Assembly (NCBI RefSeq): GCF_030382115.1
Contig: NZ_JAUDRJ010000003.1
Location: 6,782,016-6,846,015 of the forward strand
Reading direction: 5' to 3'
Length of the DNA stretch: 64,000 nt
Source: Nostoc sp. GT001
GTDB lineage: Bacteria > Cyanobacteriota > Cyanobacteriia > Cyanobacteriales > Nostocaceae
A program made the translations under genes and the position numbers. Shown here piece by piece: positions 5,631-13,573 of this stretch (its first letter is position 1; each line of letters starts with the position of its first letter). The notes beneath the pieces were generated by a model, which was not told the DNA's origin, ran no database searches, and was given only the letters and a program-made list of their open reading frames with translations.

Positions 5631-6515
5631 TTATATAACGTCAGTTGACACAATTTGCTGTAATTCATTAGCTGTATTTACAGTTTTAATTGCCTGTTGA
5701 ATTGTTTTTAATTTCTGTAAATCCGTAATTTCAGAGATTATCGGCATCAATTCTAAACCTTGATTGCCAAACTTAATTTCTAATGCTAATTCAATTCCTG
5801 AATATAACTCTTCTTTTCTTCCTCGCAGTTCTCCGCGTGCTTCTCCTCGTTCTTCCCCTTTGCTAAAAATTTCTTGATACCAAGGCGACTGCTCTAAAAG
5901 TGCCATATCCCACCTCAGAATTTGTTGAACTATTGCACTATCTAATACAAAGGTAGCAAAAAATCCTAATACTGTTTCTAGTTGATTCAATTGTTCATCT
6001 GCACGTAATATTCGCAATGCGTCCCGAATCGTAGACTCGTTATCACCTCCTTTGAGGATAGGTACAAATGGAAGTAGTGATGGTAATGGTTGTGTAAAGG
6101 CAATGTTTACATCAACTTCCCACAGGTTAATGACACGGTAATCTTGAATAGCACGTAACCCAGCAATATTTAATGCGTAACTTGTAGGTATTTCAGCATC
6201 ACTTGCCTTGAGGATATTAATTAGTACTGGATACGTTGGCAAATTATATTTTTCTTCTGCGAGTGCTGCGTAGGCACGCATCCTGCGCGGCATTTCTGGT
6301 TTATAGCGCAGTTGTAATTCGTTAAGAACGAGAAATTTTCCATACTGGGGACTTTCGACACGGATTAAAACATCACTTTCTCGACTTATCCACTGAAATT
6401 CTGAGTTGAGAATTTCGCCAGCAACAATATCAGGAATTTGCGTTACCCATTTTACCCAGTTATCAGGTGCAAGGCTAATTAAGCGTTTGGTGCTGACATC
6501 GGCGGGTTTGATCAT
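5631..6515 (-). CDS. Rpn/PD-(D/E)XK-type putative nuclease-transposase family protein
   Basis: A 294-residue soluble protein resembling the cyanobacterial Rpn / DUF4351-like group of PD-(D/E)XK proteins. These are thought to derive from DNA nucleases and often number in the dozens per genome. The candidate core is SDVLIRVESP (Asp) followed by LVLNELQLRYK (Glu-x-Gln), then a cluster of PRRMRAYAAL. Near the C-terminus are a charged helix rich in Gly-Glu-Arg (GEERGEARGELRGRKEE) and a helical tail. It stands alone, convergent with ndhJ and divergent from the next gene. The function is inferred from pattern only. Confidence 0.6.
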   Translation of the reverse strand: MIKPADVSTKRLISLAPDNWVKWVTQIPDIVAGEILNSEFQWISRESDVLIRVESPQYGKFLVLNELQLRYKPEMPRRMRAYAALAEEKYNLPTYPVLINILKASDAEIPTSYALNIAGLRAIQDYRVINLWEVDVNIAFTQPLPSLLPFVPILKGGDNESTIRDALRILRADEQLNQLETVLGFFATFVLDSAIVQQILRWDMALLEQSPWYQEIFSKGEERGEARGELRGRKEELYSGIELALEIKFGNQGLELMPIISEITDLQKLKTIQQAIKTVNTANELQQIVSTDVI

Positions 6516-6761: not shown

Positions 6762-7157
6762 ATGTCAGAAACACCCCAAAACGACGGCATTTGGATTGTG
6801 ACGGATGAAGTGCCGCAAATATCGATTCCTGATGGTGCTAAAGGCGTGAGTACTAATACACGCAGTTGGGGAGACGAAACTATCAGGGAAAGTACTGGTA
6901 GCAAAGGGGTAGGAGATGCCGTTAAGGTTAGCGCTCAAACATTAGAGCAAAATATGAGTCACTTTCTTAAATTAGTGACAAGTTTATTTAGTCAAGCTGA
7001 ACAGCAAGCAAAAGTCAACTCCAAGATGCAGCTAGATGAAATTGAGTTATCGGTAGAAATTAGTGCAGATGGGGAAGTTAAATTAATTGGCAGTGGTGTC
7101 AAAGCTGGGAGTAAAGGAGCGATTAAGCTGAAGTTTAAGCGCCAAGAACCAGGGTGA
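6762..7157 (+). CDS. Trypco1-like (CU044_2847 family) protein, partner of caspase
   Basis: A 131-residue protein. The C-terminal half (about 75-131) reads KMQLDEIELSVEISADGEVK then GSGVKAGSKGAIKLKFKR. This fits the small beta domain named trypsin-co-occurring domain 1 (CU044_2847 family), proposed from comparative genomics to signal to protease effectors in bacterial conflict systems. The middle (SAQTLEQNMSHFLKLVTSLF) is a predicted helix typical of that domain. The stop lies 1 bp before the caspase start, so the two are co-translated. The family call is by eye and moderately sure; a role as sensor or adaptor is inference. Confidence 0.65.
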   Translation: MSETPQNDGIWIVTDEVPQISIPDGAKGVSTNTRSWGDETIRESTGSKGVGDAVKVSAQTLEQNMSHFLKLVTSLFSQAEQQAKVNSKMQLDEIELSVEISADGEVKLIGSGVKAGSKGAIKLKFKRQEPG

Positions 7158-7158
7158 G

Positions 7159-8844
7159 ATGGCAAAAAATTGGGCGATCGCGATCGGAATTAACCAGTAT
7201 GATTATCTGCAACCGCTAAACTATGCAAAGCGAGATGCACAGTTAATGCAGGAGTTTCTGGGGAATGAGGCAGGATTTGAGCGGATTTTCTTCTTCTCTG
7301 ATGACTCCCCTAATGTTGCTGGAAAATCGACTCGTCCAACTCGCACTAACTTGCTGCGAATCTTGCGTCAGTTATTTGACAATCCCTTTATGGAAGCAGG
7401 GGATAATTTTTGGTTTTTCTTCAGTGGTCATGGGATAAGATACGCTGACCGTGATTATCTCATGCCCTGTGATGGCGATCCAGAAGATATTGAAAACACA
7501 GCAATTGCGATTAACTTTGTCAGTGAACGTCTGCGTCGCTGTGGTGCTGATAACGTTGTCTTGATTCTGGATGCTTGTCGCAATGAAGGCAAAAAAACAG
7601 GTGAAGGAATTGGGCGACAAACCGCACAAGAAGCACGTCAGCAAGGAGTTATCAGCATTTTTTCTTGTATTCCCCAAGAGTATTCTTATGAAATTGATGC
7701 TTTACAACAAGGTGCTTTTACCAGAGCATTACTAGAAGGGTTAGGAATTCAAGGTAAATGCGCTACTGTTGAACGATTGGATCAATATCTCAAGTTTCGC
7801 GTGCCTGAACTGGTTCGCCAGTATAAGAATACAAGGCAAACGCCTTATCTTATTGCTGAACCTGTGAATAAATCCCACCTAATACTTGTGCCACGATATG
7901 CAACTCTAGTGGATATCGCCACATTGAAAAATGATGCTTACCAAGCAGAAGTAAACAGGAGTTTAGATTTAGCAGAGCAATTATGGATTCGGGTATTAGC
8001 TGCGGCTTCAGGGCAAGATATGGATGCGGTGAGAGGTTTACAAAGAATTGAGCGGTTGCGAAATAGTTCTGCAATTCCTGATTTACCTCAGCAAACAATT
8101 CTACAAGCATCTAAGTCAGTCACAAATACACCTATAAGTAAACCTTCTCAAATTCCAACTCCCAAATTAACCTCACCATCCTCTATTACTAATACTCAAA
8201 CTTCTGGCGCGGGACAATTTGCAACACCTTCAACGCCATCCAAAAAACTAATATTATCTAACTGGTCACGGCGACGTTTAATTCAAACTGCTGGATTTGC
8301 AGTTGCTGGGTTGTTTTTGACAATTGCAGTACCCCGCCTTTGGCGGTCTGATTCAGGAACAACTACACCAACACCTACACCTACTAATAATCAACCTGTT
8401 GTATCTAGTAAGCGCCTCGATCTGAAAGCATCTAATAACACAGCCACAATTAAAGATACTCTCAAAACAGATCAAATAATTAAGTACGCTTTTTTTGGAC
8501 AGAAAGGTGATAAGTTAACTGCGTTTATTGACCCCAGAAGCAGTGTTTTGCTAACAGCCTTAAGTCCCAATCAACAACCAATTGATATTAACGCCCAAAA
8601 AGTAACAGCCTATCAAGGCATATTGTTGGTTACAGGTAGATATACTATTGAGTTAACACTGGTTCCAGGAGCTGCTAAAAGCAATTACAACCTCAATGTT
8701 GCATTAGAAAAACCAGTCAAATCAACACCGACAGAAACACCCTTGCCGATTCCTACAGAGACACCTTTCCCGATTCCCACAGAGGCACCTTTGCCACTTC
8801 CGACAGAGACACCTTTGCCAATTCCTACAGCGACACCTAGGTAA
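7159..8844 (+). CDS. Caspase-family peptidase (orthocaspase) with membrane anchor and Pro-Thr tail
   Basis: A 561-residue peptidase C14-type protein. The caspase fold covers about 1-245, with the catalytic dyad visible as FFSGHG (His91) and LILDACRNEG (Cys140). A helical segment (about 250-305, ATLKNDAYQAEVNRSLDLAE) and a Ser/Thr/Pro linker follow. Next come a membrane helix preceded by SRRRLIQTAG (about 370-395), a beta-rich domain (about 418-516) that may be PPC-like, and a tail of repeated ETPLPIPT units (about 523-561). By topology the peptidase would be cytoplasmic and the beta domain periplasmic. With the Trypco1 gene directly upstream, it is a candidate effector of a protease-based defence module. 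Confidence 0.85.
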   Translation: MAKNWAIAIGINQYDYLQPLNYAKRDAQLMQEFLGNEAGFERIFFFSDDSPNVAGKSTRPTRTNLLRILRQLFDNPFMEAGDNFWFFFSGHGIRYADRDYLMPCDGDPEDIENTAIAINFVSERLRRCGADNVVLILDACRNEGKKTGEGIGRQTAQEARQQGVISIFSCIPQEYSYEIDALQQGAFTRALLEGLGIQGKCATVERLDQYLKFRVPELVRQYKNTRQTPYLIAEPVNKSHLILVPRYATLVDIATLKNDAYQAEVNRSLDLAEQLWIRVLAAASGQDMDAVRGLQRIERLRNSSAIPDLPQQTILQASKSVTNTPISKPSQIPTPKLTSPSSITNTQTSGAGQFATPSTPSKKLILSNWSRRRLIQTAGFAVAGLFLTIAVPRLWRSDSGTTTPTPTPTNNQPVVSSKRLDLKASNNTATIKDTLKTDQIIKYAFFGQKGDKLTAFIDPRSSVLLTALSPNQQPIDINAQKVTAYQGILLVTGRYTIELTLVPGAAKSNYNLNVALEKPVKSTPTETPLPIPTETPFPIPTEAPLPLPTETPLPIPTATPR

Positions 8845-9267
8845 GCATAATAGTTTTTGTCTTTTATATGTTACGAGTGTAAAAAAGTAAGTGCCACCTT
8901 AGATTGTCGCTCGGCATTGCATTGTGTTCATTTTATGATGGTTGAATTTCGCTTTTTATACCAAAGTATTGGTATAAAGGATACCGTCAATTTATTGCTA
9001 TTGAGATGTGAGTTAAGAAATGAGTGAGAGGCAATCTAATAAACTAAAGTAGATGTTGGGTTTCATTCCTCAACCCAACCTACGATTAAGTCTAATTTGG
9101 GGTTTGACAATGCCTTTAGCCTATTTGCGATCGCACTCAGCATTCGATTTTGGGATGTCAAAAGTCTCTGGAGAGGCTTCAGAAGTTAAGCGGTAGGATA
9201 TACGATTGTGGTGCGTTGTCACAAAGGTCAACGCACCCCTATTTAAAGAAGCGGCGAGTCCAAACAA
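8845..9267. other. Intergenic region with two small palindromes
   Basis: A gap of 423 bp. It holds the perfect 9-bp-arm palindrome TTATACCAA AGTA TTGGTATAA at 8956-8977 and a GTTGGGTT...AACCCAAC hairpin near 9055-9080, a motif common in cyanobacterial spacers. No open frame here looks like a gene. Confidence 0.5.
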
Positions 9268-9633: not shown

Positions 9634-9815
9634 ATAGTTTTCCTATTTGGATTAATTTATAAATAACCCCGATTTGATACACTGAGTTATTTATATATCA
9701 TCAAGGTACGCAATAGGCAGATGCACCAGCCACAGTGAAGTTACAGAATTATAAAAGCATTGGATGGCATGAGCCAATTAGATAGATGCGGGTATATTTG
9801 CTGAAATCCGTTGAG

Positions 9816-10004
9816 AAAAGCTGGTTTTGAAGTCACAAAAGCTGGTTTTGATGTCGCAAAAGCTAGTTTTGATGTCGCAAAAGCTGGTTTTGATGTCGCA
9901 AAAGCTGGTTTTGATGTCGCAAAAGCTGGTTTTGATGTCGCAAAAGCTAGTTTTGATGTCGCAAAAGCTAGTTTTGATGTCACAAAAGCTAGTTTTGATG
10001 TCGC
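9816..10004. repeat. Tandem repeat, nine units of 21 bp
   Basis: Nine contiguous 21-bp units of the type AAAAGCTGGTTTTGATGTCG+C, with a G/A difference at the eighth base and a few other single changes. The period equals three heptamers and seven codons, so several frames stay open through it (for example a KAGFDVA heptapeptide on the plus strand). There is no convincing start, and none of the frames resembles a known protein. It most likely acts as a minisatellite, not a gene. Confidence 0.9.
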
Positions 10005-10021
10005 GGAGCTTTATTATCTCA

Positions 10022-10092
10022 TGTAGAGACGCGATTTATCGCGTCTAAAAAATTGACGCGTTAGACAGACGCGATAAATCGCCGTCTCTACA
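10022..10092. repeat. 71-bp inverted repeat of the TAGAGACGCGAT family
   Basis: TGTAGAGACGCGATTTATCG at the left pairs with the complementary right arm ending GCCGTCTCTACA, around a centre with a further GACGCG. The arms themselves are near-palindromic. It directly follows the 21-bp tandem array. Confidence 0.75.
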
Positions 10093-10527: not shown

Positions 10528-11820
10528 ATGTCTCAAGACTTATTAAACTCCTTTCAAGAAGCATACAGTAATCTCGAACTGTTCCCGTTGATGGAACGGA
10601 ACGAAATGGAAAGATTTCGAGTCGAATATGGTGATGATTTGATTGCAGACCTGAACCAATTAGTAGAAGATAGTCCTAATGGAGATGGCAAAATTGTCTT
10701 TACAGGACATCGGGGATGTGGTAAGTCTACTTTGTTAGCTGAATTCAGCCGACAAATTCAAGATAAATATTTTGTAGTTCTCTTTTCTATTGCTGACAAA
10801 ATTGAAATGTCGGCTGTTAATCATATTAATATACTGTTTGCGATCGCAGTTAATTTAATGACAGAGGCAGAAGCCCGCAAGGTTGATATTCCGCAATCTA
10901 CTAAAGAAGCTCTTTATAAGTGGTTTGCTACCCGCACTCGTACTGAAGAATTAAATTTACAAGCAGAAGCTAGTATAGGTTTTGACCTTTTAAAGTTGAT
11001 TAGTTCTAAATTAAAAGCTGATGCAAGCGTTCGGGATGAAATTAAGCAAGAATTTGAACGCAAGTTATCAGATTTAGTTGCCAGAATTAACGAAATAGCT
11101 GCTTTAATTCAAGCTGCAACTAAACAAAACGTTTTAGTAATTATTGATGATTTAGATAAACTTGATTTAGGTAGAGTTAACGAAATTTATCGAGATAATA
11201 TTAAAGCTCTCTGTCAACCTAACTTTCAAATTATCTACACCATCCCGATCGCAGTCCTTCGAGAAACATTTATTAGCACAATTATTGCCACTGAAACCAA
11301 CGATCAAGTTGTGGCAATGCCTGTATTAAAAATATTTGATAAAGGTAAAAATCGCTTCCCAAATGCCCAACCTCGCCCGGAAGCAACAAAGATTCTCGGT
11401 GAAGTTTTACAAAAGCGGATTCCCAGTGAATTAATCGCACCAGAGACGGCTGAAAAAATTGTGATTTACAGTGGTGGCGTATTGCGAGAATTAATTCGGA
11501 TTTCTAAGGAATGTTGTCGCATTTGTTTGCGAATGATTCGGCGAAATCCTTCAGCCGAAGTTATTATTGATGATAAAATTCTTTTGCAAGCAATCAATAA
11601 AATTCGCAATGATTTTTCGATACGGTTAGGAAAAACTGATATCGATATTTTGCAGAGTGTTTATGAGCAATTTATGCCCAATGACCCCAAACAAGCAGAG
11701 TTTTTAGATTTGTTACATGGGCTGTATGTTCTAGAATATCGCACTGATGAAACTTGGTATGATGTTCATCCAATTATTATCGAAAGCTTGAGAAGACAGG
11801 GAGCCATTAATGTTAAATGA
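10528..11820 (+). CDS. AAA-type P-loop ATPase, function unknown
   Basis: A 430-residue protein. Walker A is visible as GHRGCGKST (60-68) and Walker B as VLVIIDDLDK (202-211), with a possible sensor-1 Thr in IIYTIP (235-240). The helical insert 110-200 includes a long charged helix. The C-terminal third (about 320-430) reads like a winged-helix or lid region of AAA/ORC-STAND type (GGVLRELIRISKECC; YDVHPIIIESLRR). It has no membrane segment. The last 11 bp overlap the start of the TPR gene, so the two are coupled. It resembles orphan P-loop ATPases of conflict systems; the role is not established. Confidence 0.75.
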   Translation: MSQDLLNSFQEAYSNLELFPLMERNEMERFRVEYGDDLIADLNQLVEDSPNGDGKIVFTGHRGCGKSTLLAEFSRQIQDKYFVVLFSIADKIEMSAVNHINILFAIAVNLMTEAEARKVDIPQSTKEALYKWFATRTRTEELNLQAEASIGFDLLKLISSKLKADASVRDEIKQEFERKLSDLVARINEIAALIQAATKQNVLVIIDDLDKLDLGRVNEIYRDNIKALCQPNFQIIYTIPIAVLRETFISTIIATETNDQVVAMPVLKIFDKGKNRFPNAQPRPEATKILGEVLQKRIPSELIAPETAEKIVIYSGGVLRELIRISKECCRICLRMIRRNPSAEVIIDDKILLQAINKIRNDFSIRLGKTDIDILQSVYEQFMPNDPKQAEFLDLLHGLYVLEYRTDETWYDVHPIIIESLRRQGAINVK

Positions 11821-13573
11821 GGAATTATTAGATGATGAAGGAGAAAATCAAGATGCGTATGATGATTTAATTGTTTCTATTGAAGCTCAAAAGCGGGGAT
11901 TAAATTTACTAATTGCAGTTTGCGATGATGCTAGCTTTCGAGATCAGATTATTGCTCAGTATGAAGCCGAACTACAACCCATCTTCGGTGCATATCGAGT
12001 AACTTTAGCACGTCAAGAACCAAGCCTGAAAGCTGCTCTTAACCAACTGGTACAACAAGAAGAATATCTCCGTCAGCAGAAGCCAGCGGTGATTACTGTG
12101 ACGGGTGCTGAACAATTGTATTTTCTTAGGTTGGGAAATGAGCAATCTGAGCAGGAGAAATTTTTTGGTTACTTACAGTGGACTAGGGAAGGATTGCGCG
12201 AATTTCCGTTTGCAATTGTACTTTGGGTAACTAACCAAATTTTAGTCAACCTGATTAAAAAAGCGCCTGATTTTTGGAGTTGGCGCAATGGTGTATTCCG
12301 GTTTGAATCTAAAAAGACAAATGCTATTCCTGGTAAAGAACTAGAAAATATCCGCTTTGTTTTTCGAGATACAGAATTAGCTAGCACAGATACTAATGAA
12401 ACTAATCGCTTTTTCTTACCGATTCAAGATTTACAAAGGTTAATCGAGAAAGTAGAACAAGAACGGGGAACTAAAGACCCCACCTTGGCTACTTTGTACT
12501 CAAGATTGGGCGATATTTACCACAGCAGATTAGATCGGGGTGAATCTCAAAATTATCAAGAAGAACAAGAATTAGCAATTAAATATTGGCGTCAGGCGAG
12601 TGAGTTACAAAATGAATTGGGTTTGCAGATAGACTTAGCTAATAGCCTCAACAATTTAGCAGGAATATATCGTGCAATCGGAAACTATGCTGAAGCCGAA
12701 CCCTTATATAAACAAGCTTTAGAACTGAGGAAACGCCTGTTAGGAGAAAATCATCCGGCTTTTGCCACTAGCCTGAATAATTTGGCAGGACTTTACAAAT
12801 CAACTGGGCAATATAATAAAGCGGAACTTCTATATCAACAAGCTTTAGAACTGAGAAAAAGACTATGGGGAGAAAACCATGCCGATGTTGCCGTCAGTCT
12901 GAACAATTTGGCATTACTATATGATGAACAAGGACGTTATGACGAAGCAGAACCCCTGTATTTGCAATCATTAGAACTTGAAAAACGTCTGGTTGGCGAA
13001 AATCATCTTTCTTTCGCTCTTATACTAAATAATTTAGCGCTACTTTATTATCATCAAGGACGTTACAGTGAAGCTGAACCTTTATCGCAACAAGCAATAG
13101 AATTAGATAAGCGATTTTTGGGAGAAGAAAATCCTGATGTTGCCACAGATTTGCACAATTTAGGTTTAATATACCGCGCTCAAGGACGCTACAGTGAAGC
13201 GGAATCTTTGTTTTTAGAATCATTGGAACTCAAGCAGCGTGTATTACAAAAAGCGCATCCGCTTTTAGCAGATACGATCTACGCTTTGGGTTATATGTAC
13301 AGGGAACAGGGACGTTATCATGAAGCAGAATCCTTATGTATAAAAGCCTTAGAACTTGATAAGCACCTATTAGGAGAAAATCATCCTAATGTTGCCGAAA
13401 GTCTGAATAATCTGGCAGAAATTTATCGTGCAACTGGACGTTACGGTGAAGCAAAACCGCTTTATTTGCAAGCTTTAGATATTTGCGAACGAGTCTGGGG
13501 TGTAAATCATCACCGTAGTGTTACTGTTCGTCAAAATTTAGAGAAACTTGTCACAGCAATGCAGAATAATTAA
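11810..13573 (+). CDS. TPR protein with N-terminal inactive-NTPase-like domain
   Basis: A 587-residue protein. Residues 1 to about 215 look like an alpha/beta domain with strands (LNLLIAVCDDASFRDQII; PAVITVTGAEQLYFL; FAIVLWVTNQIL) and the segment KAPDFWSWRNGVFRF. It resembles a P-loop or STAND-like fold with no Walker A motif. Residues 226-585 hold about seven 42-residue TPR units of the kinesin-light-chain type (SLNNLAGIYRAIGNYAEAEP; LLGENHP). It overlaps the ATPase by 11 bp. The architecture suggests a sensor or scaffold (TPR) working with the active ATPase. The inactive-NTPase reading is inference. Confidence 0.7.
   Translation: MLNEELLDDEGENQDAYDDLIVSIEAQKRGLNLLIAVCDDASFRDQIIAQYEAELQPIFGAYRVTLARQEPSLKAALNQLVQQEEYLRQQKPAVITVTGAEQLYFLRLGNEQSEQEKFFGYLQWTREGLREFPFAIVLWVTNQILVNLIKKAPDFWSWRNGVFRFESKKTNAIPGKELENIRFVFRDTELASTDTNETNRFFLPIQDLQRLIEKVEQERGTKDPTLATLYSRLGDIYHSRLDRGESQNYQEEQELAIKYWRQASELQNELGLQIDLANSLNNLAGIYRAIGNYAEAEPLYKQALELRKRLLGENHPAFATSLNNLAGLYKSTGQYNKAELLYQQALELRKRLWGENHADVAVSLNNLALLYDEQGRYDEAEPLYLQSLELEKRLVGENHLSFALILNNLALLYYHQGRYSEAEPLSQQAIELDKRFLGEENPDVATDLHNLGLIYRAQGRYSEAESLFLESLELKQRVLQKAHPLLADTIYALGYMYREQGRYHEAESLCIKALELDKHLLGENHPNVAESLNNLAEIYRATGRYGEAKPLYLQALDICERVWGVNHHRSVTVRQNLEKLVTAMQNN

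Follow-up and report, generated by a model that had tools for sequence, protein, structure and literature searches.

In the 64,000-nt stretch of the Nostoc sp. GT001 genome analyzed here (referred to as the window), a small gene encoding a Pepco protein lies 1 bp upstream of a gene encoding a predicted membrane-anchored caspase. Pairing of Pepco with a caspase is far above chance and is restricted to one caspase clade bearing the catalytic His/Cys dyad, and the window caspase has undergone a domain exchange that gave it a C-terminal end of the kind found on a protein kinase that GT001 also encodes. We interpret the pair as a caspase switch that would be regulated by Pepco, anchored in the membrane, and equipped with a captured envelope-sensing domain, a reading to which we assign a probability of roughly 0.55.

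Pepco and caspase genes in the window

The first gene of the pair (positions 6762 to 7157, plus strand) encodes 131 amino acids and the second (7159 to 8844, plus strand) encodes 561 amino acids. The TGA stop codon of the former occupies positions 7155 to 7157 and the ATG codon of the latter begins at 7159, and both ORFs and the 1-bp spacing agree with the initial annotation. The larger protein combines an orthocaspase-type p20 domain, a predicted membrane anchor, and a kinase-type C-terminal domain. Its p20 domain (7168 to 7857, plus strand) matches Pfam Peptidase_C14 (PF00656) with an E value of 2.7e-27 over residues 4 to 233, is modeled by AlphaFold with a pLDDT mostly above 90, and contains the His/Cys dyad by which orthocaspases are recognized, with His91 in an FSGHG motif and Cys140 in a DACRN motif. 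A membrane helix (approximately residues 374 to 392; 8278 to 8334, plus strand) is predicted from hydropathy alone: the top hydrophobic window of the protein starts at residue 374, just after an RRR motif, and has a mean Kyte-Doolittle value of 1.81. The protein ends in a Pro/Thr tail of ETPLPIPT repeats (8725 to 8838, plus strand), encoded by overlapping 24-nt repeats at positions 8728 to 8847. The dyad, the single hydrophobic helix, and the Pro/Thr tail that had been described before are thus all present in the 561-aa ORF.

The small protein matches the Pepco family (PF24393) over its whole length (E value of 1.4e-36 for residues 10 to 127; 125.8 bits, with the cut-off at 27), and a genome-wide search returned it as the sole Pepco match in GT001. 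The initial annotation had called this protein Trypco1-like, an assignment that had to be abandoned because Pfam yielded no match to Trypco1 (PF19493) at an E value of ≤1, an outcome that the annotation itself had named as refuting its interpretation. When the Pepco profile (62 sequences) was compared with the Trypco1 profile (27 sequences) by hhalign, a probability of 10% (P value of 0.003) was obtained, which leaves remote kinship possible while excluding membership in Trypco1. It had further been stated that Trypco1 was defined beside trypsin- or caspase-type effectors; the available parts of PMC7159879 bear out trypsin and not caspase, the domain having originally been defined there as trypsin-co-occurring, not caspase-co-occurring. 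Trypco1 matches lie at three places in the GT001 genome, none of them the small gene. Two of the three have a caspase gene next to them that is encoded on the opposite strand (C3:5254488-5255896 and C3:7269644-7270652; loci L002, L003, L012, and L013), so that Trypco1 can sit beside caspases too. EACC1 was also rejected as the identity of the 5′ gene, which is Pepco, and the caspase scored 73.1 bits against the EACC1-associated caspase model NF047832, below its cut-off of 140. No trypsin-like peptidase was found among the six proteins scanned between positions 5631 and 13573 of the window, nor did these six include a MoxR ATPase, a vWA protein, or VMAP.

AlphaFold modeled Pepco from 54 sequences with a mean pLDDT of 68, as a strand, a low-confidence stretch (residues 17 to 49), a second strand, a 30-residue helix, and three further strands. 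A Foldseek search of the PDB with this fold gave no match at an E value of ≤0.001, and the best PDB match by sequence had an E value of 0.39. Further downstream in the window, positions 10528 to 13573 hold overlapping genes for an AAA_16/KAP-like ATPase and a TPR protein, which also stand behind the Pepco-caspase pair in Nostoc relatives; an AAA gene is present at 11 of the 80 named loci described below. Between the caspase and AAA genes lies a tandem 21-bp repeat, AAAAGCTGGTTTTGATGTCGC (9795 to 10046), that is present at some orthologous loci too.

Pepco as the partner of one caspase clade

We searched 291 genomes of the order for Pepco and found it in 75 of them at an E value of ≤0.001 (73 above the cut-off). 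A total of 110 places were listed, the 9 weakest of which were left out, and the order set consisted of 100 fetched loci and the window (101 loci). A caspase ORF was counted as adjacent when it lay on the same strand and started between −100 and +900 bp from the Pepco stop codon. By this rule, a downstream caspase ORF is present at 88 of the 101 Pepco loci (window counted), with five of the 88 being fragments of <140 aa, and 66 of the 83 caspases of at least 240 aa start between −12 and +20 bp from the Pepco stop codon. The named set, comprising the top 80 among 169 named loci (each with a cyanobacterial title, and 6 of them also in the order set), has a caspase ORF in the adjacent position at 66 loci, 59 of these ORFs being at least 240 aa long; the remaining 14 loci include contig ends, CHAT neighbors, a remoter caspase (L199), and remnants. 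The two genes are therefore conserved as neighbors across cyanobacteria, and the initial annotation, which a lack of such conservation would have refuted, stands on this point.

The 13 exceptions in the order set include three loci (L089, L090, and L093) at which, according to Pfam, a CHAT-plus-GUN4 protein adjoins Pepco instead of a caspase; CHAT is a caspase-fold protease domain. L090 and L093 are identical to L220 and L221, and a CHAT-type protein, judged by eye, also follows Pepco at L238. The caspase lies upstream of Pepco at L082 and L124 and is convergent to it at L062, and at L052 two copies of an ORF that we read as a transposase stand between the two genes. No caspase was found nearby on the Pepco strand at L075, L095, L102, L121, L122, and L142. 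L121 and L122 are situated about 10 kb apart in one genome, where two Pepco-like stretches of equal score each precede the same 114-aa ORF, one of them continuing from an mnmE reading frame; this looks like a duplicated stretch. Pepco without an intact caspase was found at L177, L178, L198, L201, L227, L231, and L243, and loci at which Pepco persists next to a truncated or internally deleted caspase, or with no caspase at all, are L177, L178, L186, L193, L194, L195, and L225. A non-cyanobacterial pair with reversed gene order is carried by a Rhizobium jaguaris plasmid (L351), in which the Pepco gene (E value of 1.4e-22) follows, after about 60 bp, a caspase gene that ends in FGE-sulfatase.

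For the reciprocal test, caspase matches with an E value of ≤1e-30 in 120 genomes were binned by their identity to the window p20 domain. Pepco lies directly upstream of 25 of the 30 matches with at least 50% identity (window counted), of 5 of 15 with 42 to 49% identity, and of 0 of 58 with less than 42% identity. The five misses in the highest bin are accounted for by one Pepco on the other side, one contig edge, one 95-residue fragment, and two orphans (L303 and L304), which are intact close caspases without an adjacent Pepco. The His/Cys dyad is present in all 82 Pepco-linked p20 domains tested (window not counted). At the same positions, 18 unlinked relatives with 38 to 44% identity, fetched from 68 unlinked caspases below 50% identity, carry Tyr/Asn (17 relatives) or Val/His (1 relative). 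Nine other Peptidase_C14 matches in the GT001 genome are without Pepco, and since eight of them have His/Cys (the ninth has Tyr/Ser), active caspases of other clades get by without it, which speaks against a general rule. With Tyr/Asn at the dyad, 17 of the 18 unlinked relatives match the YN-type pseudo-orthocaspases named in the available parts of PMC6426788 and PMC8283722. Unlike the window caspase, such relatives lack the His/Cys dyad, an upstream Pepco, and helices of the type formed by residues 246 to 304.

These residues constitute a three-helix segment behind p20 (7894 to 8070, plus strand) that is helical in the AlphaFold model. A profile of the segment, built from linked caspases with the window among them, matches 72 of 82 linked caspases (window counted), whereas the segment is missing in the other 10; it matches 0 of the 18 distant relatives that lack Pepco and both orphans, the two close relatives without it. 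We infer that residues 246 to 304 are a candidate docking site for Pepco: the way in which Pepco tracks both the dyad-bearing clade and these helices points to binding at that place, by which proteolysis would be either restrained or licensed. The distance matrices of Pepco and p20 are correlated as well (Mantel test, r = 0.60 for 78 pairs, a value reached by 0 of 1,000 shuffles), although this correlation could stem from shared ancestry alone.

A kinase-type end at a variable locus

The C-terminal ends of the linked caspases differ widely. Among 82 of them, 40 carry an FGE-sulfatase (C-type-lectin-like) module and 24 carry GUN4, while SAVED, nSTAND, response regulator, RDD, and other domains occur on single caspases; one protein may score twice in these counts (e.g., L101). 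At 11 of the 48 named loci whose caspase ORF is closed and spans 440 aa or more, a second copy of the caspase 3′ end lies behind the stop codon, at a distance of 167 to 201 bp or, in L200, of 380 bp. The loci with such template-repeat-like copies are L174, L175, L176, L184, L189, L190, L196, L200, L206, L213, and L232; at L175, for example, the 3′ end and its copy occupy positions 8070 to 8204 and 8396 to 8530. Adenine stands in the copy at 147 of the 171 in-gene mismatches (pooled, 86%) and in the gene at 7. Counted per pair and including 20 bases past the stop codon, the adenine share exceeds 80% in 5 of the 11 pairs and amounts to 62 to 79% in the other six. The available parts of PMC7517822, in which orthocaspase-like peptidase domains are reported on retroelement-variable proteins, give >80% adenine-directed mismatches as the criterion for a diversity-generating retroelement. 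The adenine-directed copy is an apparent signature of such an element in these 11 of 48 relatives. Near seven of the copy-bearing loci, a crude motif scan for a reverse transcriptase-like ORF gave the AAA gene only, from which we would guess that the reverse transcriptase acts in trans. The sole diversity-retroelement-type reverse transcriptase motif seen among the relatives lies at L341, in the genome of L190.

Fifteen named loci are syntenic with the window, having genes of the ndhK and ndhJ types (identified in the window by Pfam Oxidored_q6 and Complex1_30kDa) upstream of Pepco, and ten of these also have the downstream AAA gene. At 11 of the 15 loci the caspase ORF is complete and has the lectin-type GFRVVA motif at its end, and Pfam finds FGE-sulfatase in both syntenic caspases scanned (L175 and L181); of the other loci, two have lost the caspase and two run off the contig. 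The beta domain of the window caspase was found at 0 of the 15 syntenic, 0 of the 80 named, and 0 of the 100 order Pepco loci. Tested as a variable protein of a diversity-generating retroelement, the window allele has neither a lectin-like variable region nor a template repeat, and the searches behind the window caspase, one of them without a positive control in its own genome, found no template repeat there.

In place of the lectin-like end, the window caspase contains a kinase-type segment (8358 to 8838, plus strand) that is identical in 393 of 485 alignment columns (81%) to the C3:2475762 gene of the same genome, which encodes a protein kinase (Pfam Pkinase, E value of 2e-35). The match spans the PT linker, the beta domain (67% amino acid identity), and the same ETPLPIPT repeats, and the odd outer domain pointed out in the initial annotation is real and corresponds to the C-terminal end of this kinase. 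Orthologous DNA ends at positions 8358 to 8381 (L176, L181, L187, and L189) and resumes at 8838 to 8840 in L186 and L180, and later in other orthologues, which gives the domain exchange its approximate breakpoints. The beta domain itself occurs in 71 of 120 genomes searched, and among 29 other beta-domain loci, 22 show a kinase signature, 0 a caspase, and 7 are undecided. The breakpoints and the kinase match indicate that the caspase kept the hydrophobic segment it already had and that its outer part most likely came from the kinase, and we infer that the transfer ran from kinase to caspase. Such a swap would imply that the C-terminal ends of both proteins face the periplasm.

The presumably periplasmic beta domain (8413 to 8712, plus strand) is PliG/PPC-like in its sequence profile. 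A profile of 25 relatives matches the structure of PliG (4dzg) with an E value of 8e-8 and three related chains, namely, two named lysozyme inhibitors and one Gifsy-1 prophage protein, with values of 0.0045 to 0.011. Pfam PPC matches 4 of the 25 members weakly (best E value of 0.015), and AlphaFold models the window domain as strands with low confidence (pLDDT of about 42 to 62). PliG is a periplasmic inhibitor of g-type lysozyme; the window domain resembles it by sequence profile but forms the C-terminal module of a larger protein.

A proposed caspase switch and its alternatives

Pfam Pepco with a neighboring caspase is the same kind of pair as that in the window, where the caspase bears in addition a kinase-type C-terminal domain. 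In the EACC1-caspase system, as presented in the available parts of PMC7159879, a small 5′ gene is paired with a 3′ gene whose N-terminal caspase is constant, often membrane-bound, and followed by variable C-terminal domains; the two systems have this layout in common but differ in the 5′ gene, which is Pepco and not EACC1 in our pair, and in host, the EACC1 system being mainly actinobacterial and ours cyanobacterial. The orthocaspases of cyanobacteria covered in the available parts of PMC8283722 and PMC7517822, some of them diversified by retroelements, share the p20 His/Cys dyad and, with the relatives of the window caspase, the FGE-sulfatase or GUN4 ends, whereas a Pepco partner is not mentioned in those parts and the window allele has a PliG/PPC-like and no lectin-like end. 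Our literature search, with subscription papers mostly outside it, returned no paper joining Pepco, caspase, and cyanobacteria, none with PF24393, and one general review for orthocaspase and abortive infection. Within this literature, the association of Pepco with the active clade and the kinase-to-caspase swap at a variable locus are new, while the parts are of known kinds.

In the reading that we favor, Pepco and an active p20, encoded side by side, would be the constant parts, with Pepco most likely docking on p20 and the helices that follow it and thereby controlling proteolysis; such regulation of the caspase is plausible. The C-terminal part of the caspase would be an exchangeable input domain, and in GT001 the PliG/PPC-like domain and its Pro/Thr stalk have been swapped in behind the membrane helix. 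Anchored in the cytoplasmic membrane, the protein would hold its protease inside the cell and expose its beta domain to the periplasm; an envelope event sensed on the outer side would then unleash p20 on proteins of the cytoplasm and lead to death or arrest. The death or arrest outcome and a phage trigger are suggested by the company that such proteases keep in the available parts of PMC7159879, and by analogy with this company a role in conflict or abortive infection is plausible.

A narrower version of this explanation, which we hold only tentatively, is that the pair is an abortive-infection antiphage module in which a phage component or phage-made envelope damage triggers the caspase and the cell dies. 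It would agree with the caspase-centered conflict systems, both two-gene and ternary, that the available parts of PMC7159879 describe in multicellular prokaryotes, with the SAVED domain on one linked caspase and nSTAND, HD-CE, or iHD-CE on others, and with the lectin-like ends that bear a retroelement-diversification signature at 11 of 48 loci; however, no phage record matches the locus, and PADLOC assigns only a generic caspase model to the gene pair. It is rather doubtful that the pair is a stress or developmental protease switch apart from phage, serving filaments under, for instance, envelope, light, or tetrapyrrole stress. The GUN4 input domains of 24 of 82 linked caspases and the kinase-type C-terminal domain of the window caspase point in that direction, yet the exchange of input ends and the apparent retroelement diversification resemble an arms race and not housekeeping, and Pepco is present in only 75 of the 291 order genomes. 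We regard it as unlikely that the two genes form a toxin-antitoxin pair, with Pepco as an antitoxin-like inhibitor of the caspase and no sensor switch. Pepco has been kept at loci with a missing or damaged caspase (L177, L178, L193, L194, L195, and L225), and the dyad-less relatives that were fetched have no upstream Pepco, as this explanation would have it; but the loci that kept Pepco came from a Pepco bait, so that Pepco loss is under-sampled, two intact orphan caspases exist, and the exchangeable C-terminal domains are left unexplained. It is hardly credible that the kinase-caspase fusion is a dead relic or was created by an assembly error: although this genome is the sole one to show the fusion among the 80 named and 100 order loci, its frame is open, its dyad is intact, orthologous DNA resumes cleanly downstream (8838 to 8840) in two relatives, and a segment that is 81%, and not approximately 100%, identical to the kinase is neither a recent duplicate of the kinase gene nor the product of a mis-join with it.

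The Pepco-regulated, membrane-anchored switch could be extended, as a speculation that we consider improbable, to an immune-receptor-like chassis of filamentous cyanobacteria, in which an invariant, Pepco-gated executioner protease would carry its outer sensor as a plug-in, subject either to hypermutation by a retroelement, in the case of the lectin-like end, or to replacement as a whole. In GT001, the kinase-derived PliG-like domain would then bind periplasmic muralytic enzymes, and lysins of phages or predators would fire the caspase.

Orthocaspases feature widely in the discussion of programmed cell death in bacteria, as its agents, and the pair described here addresses the question of what switches them. 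Pepco emerges as a constant partner that tracks one catalytically intact clade, and the locus offers a defined candidate docking segment together with a natural domain swap, by which the caspase at one locus has a variable lectin-like end in relatives and a kinase-type outer domain in GT001. The constant Pepco partner and the domain swap suggest that in these proteases the C terminus may be the input and p20 the output.
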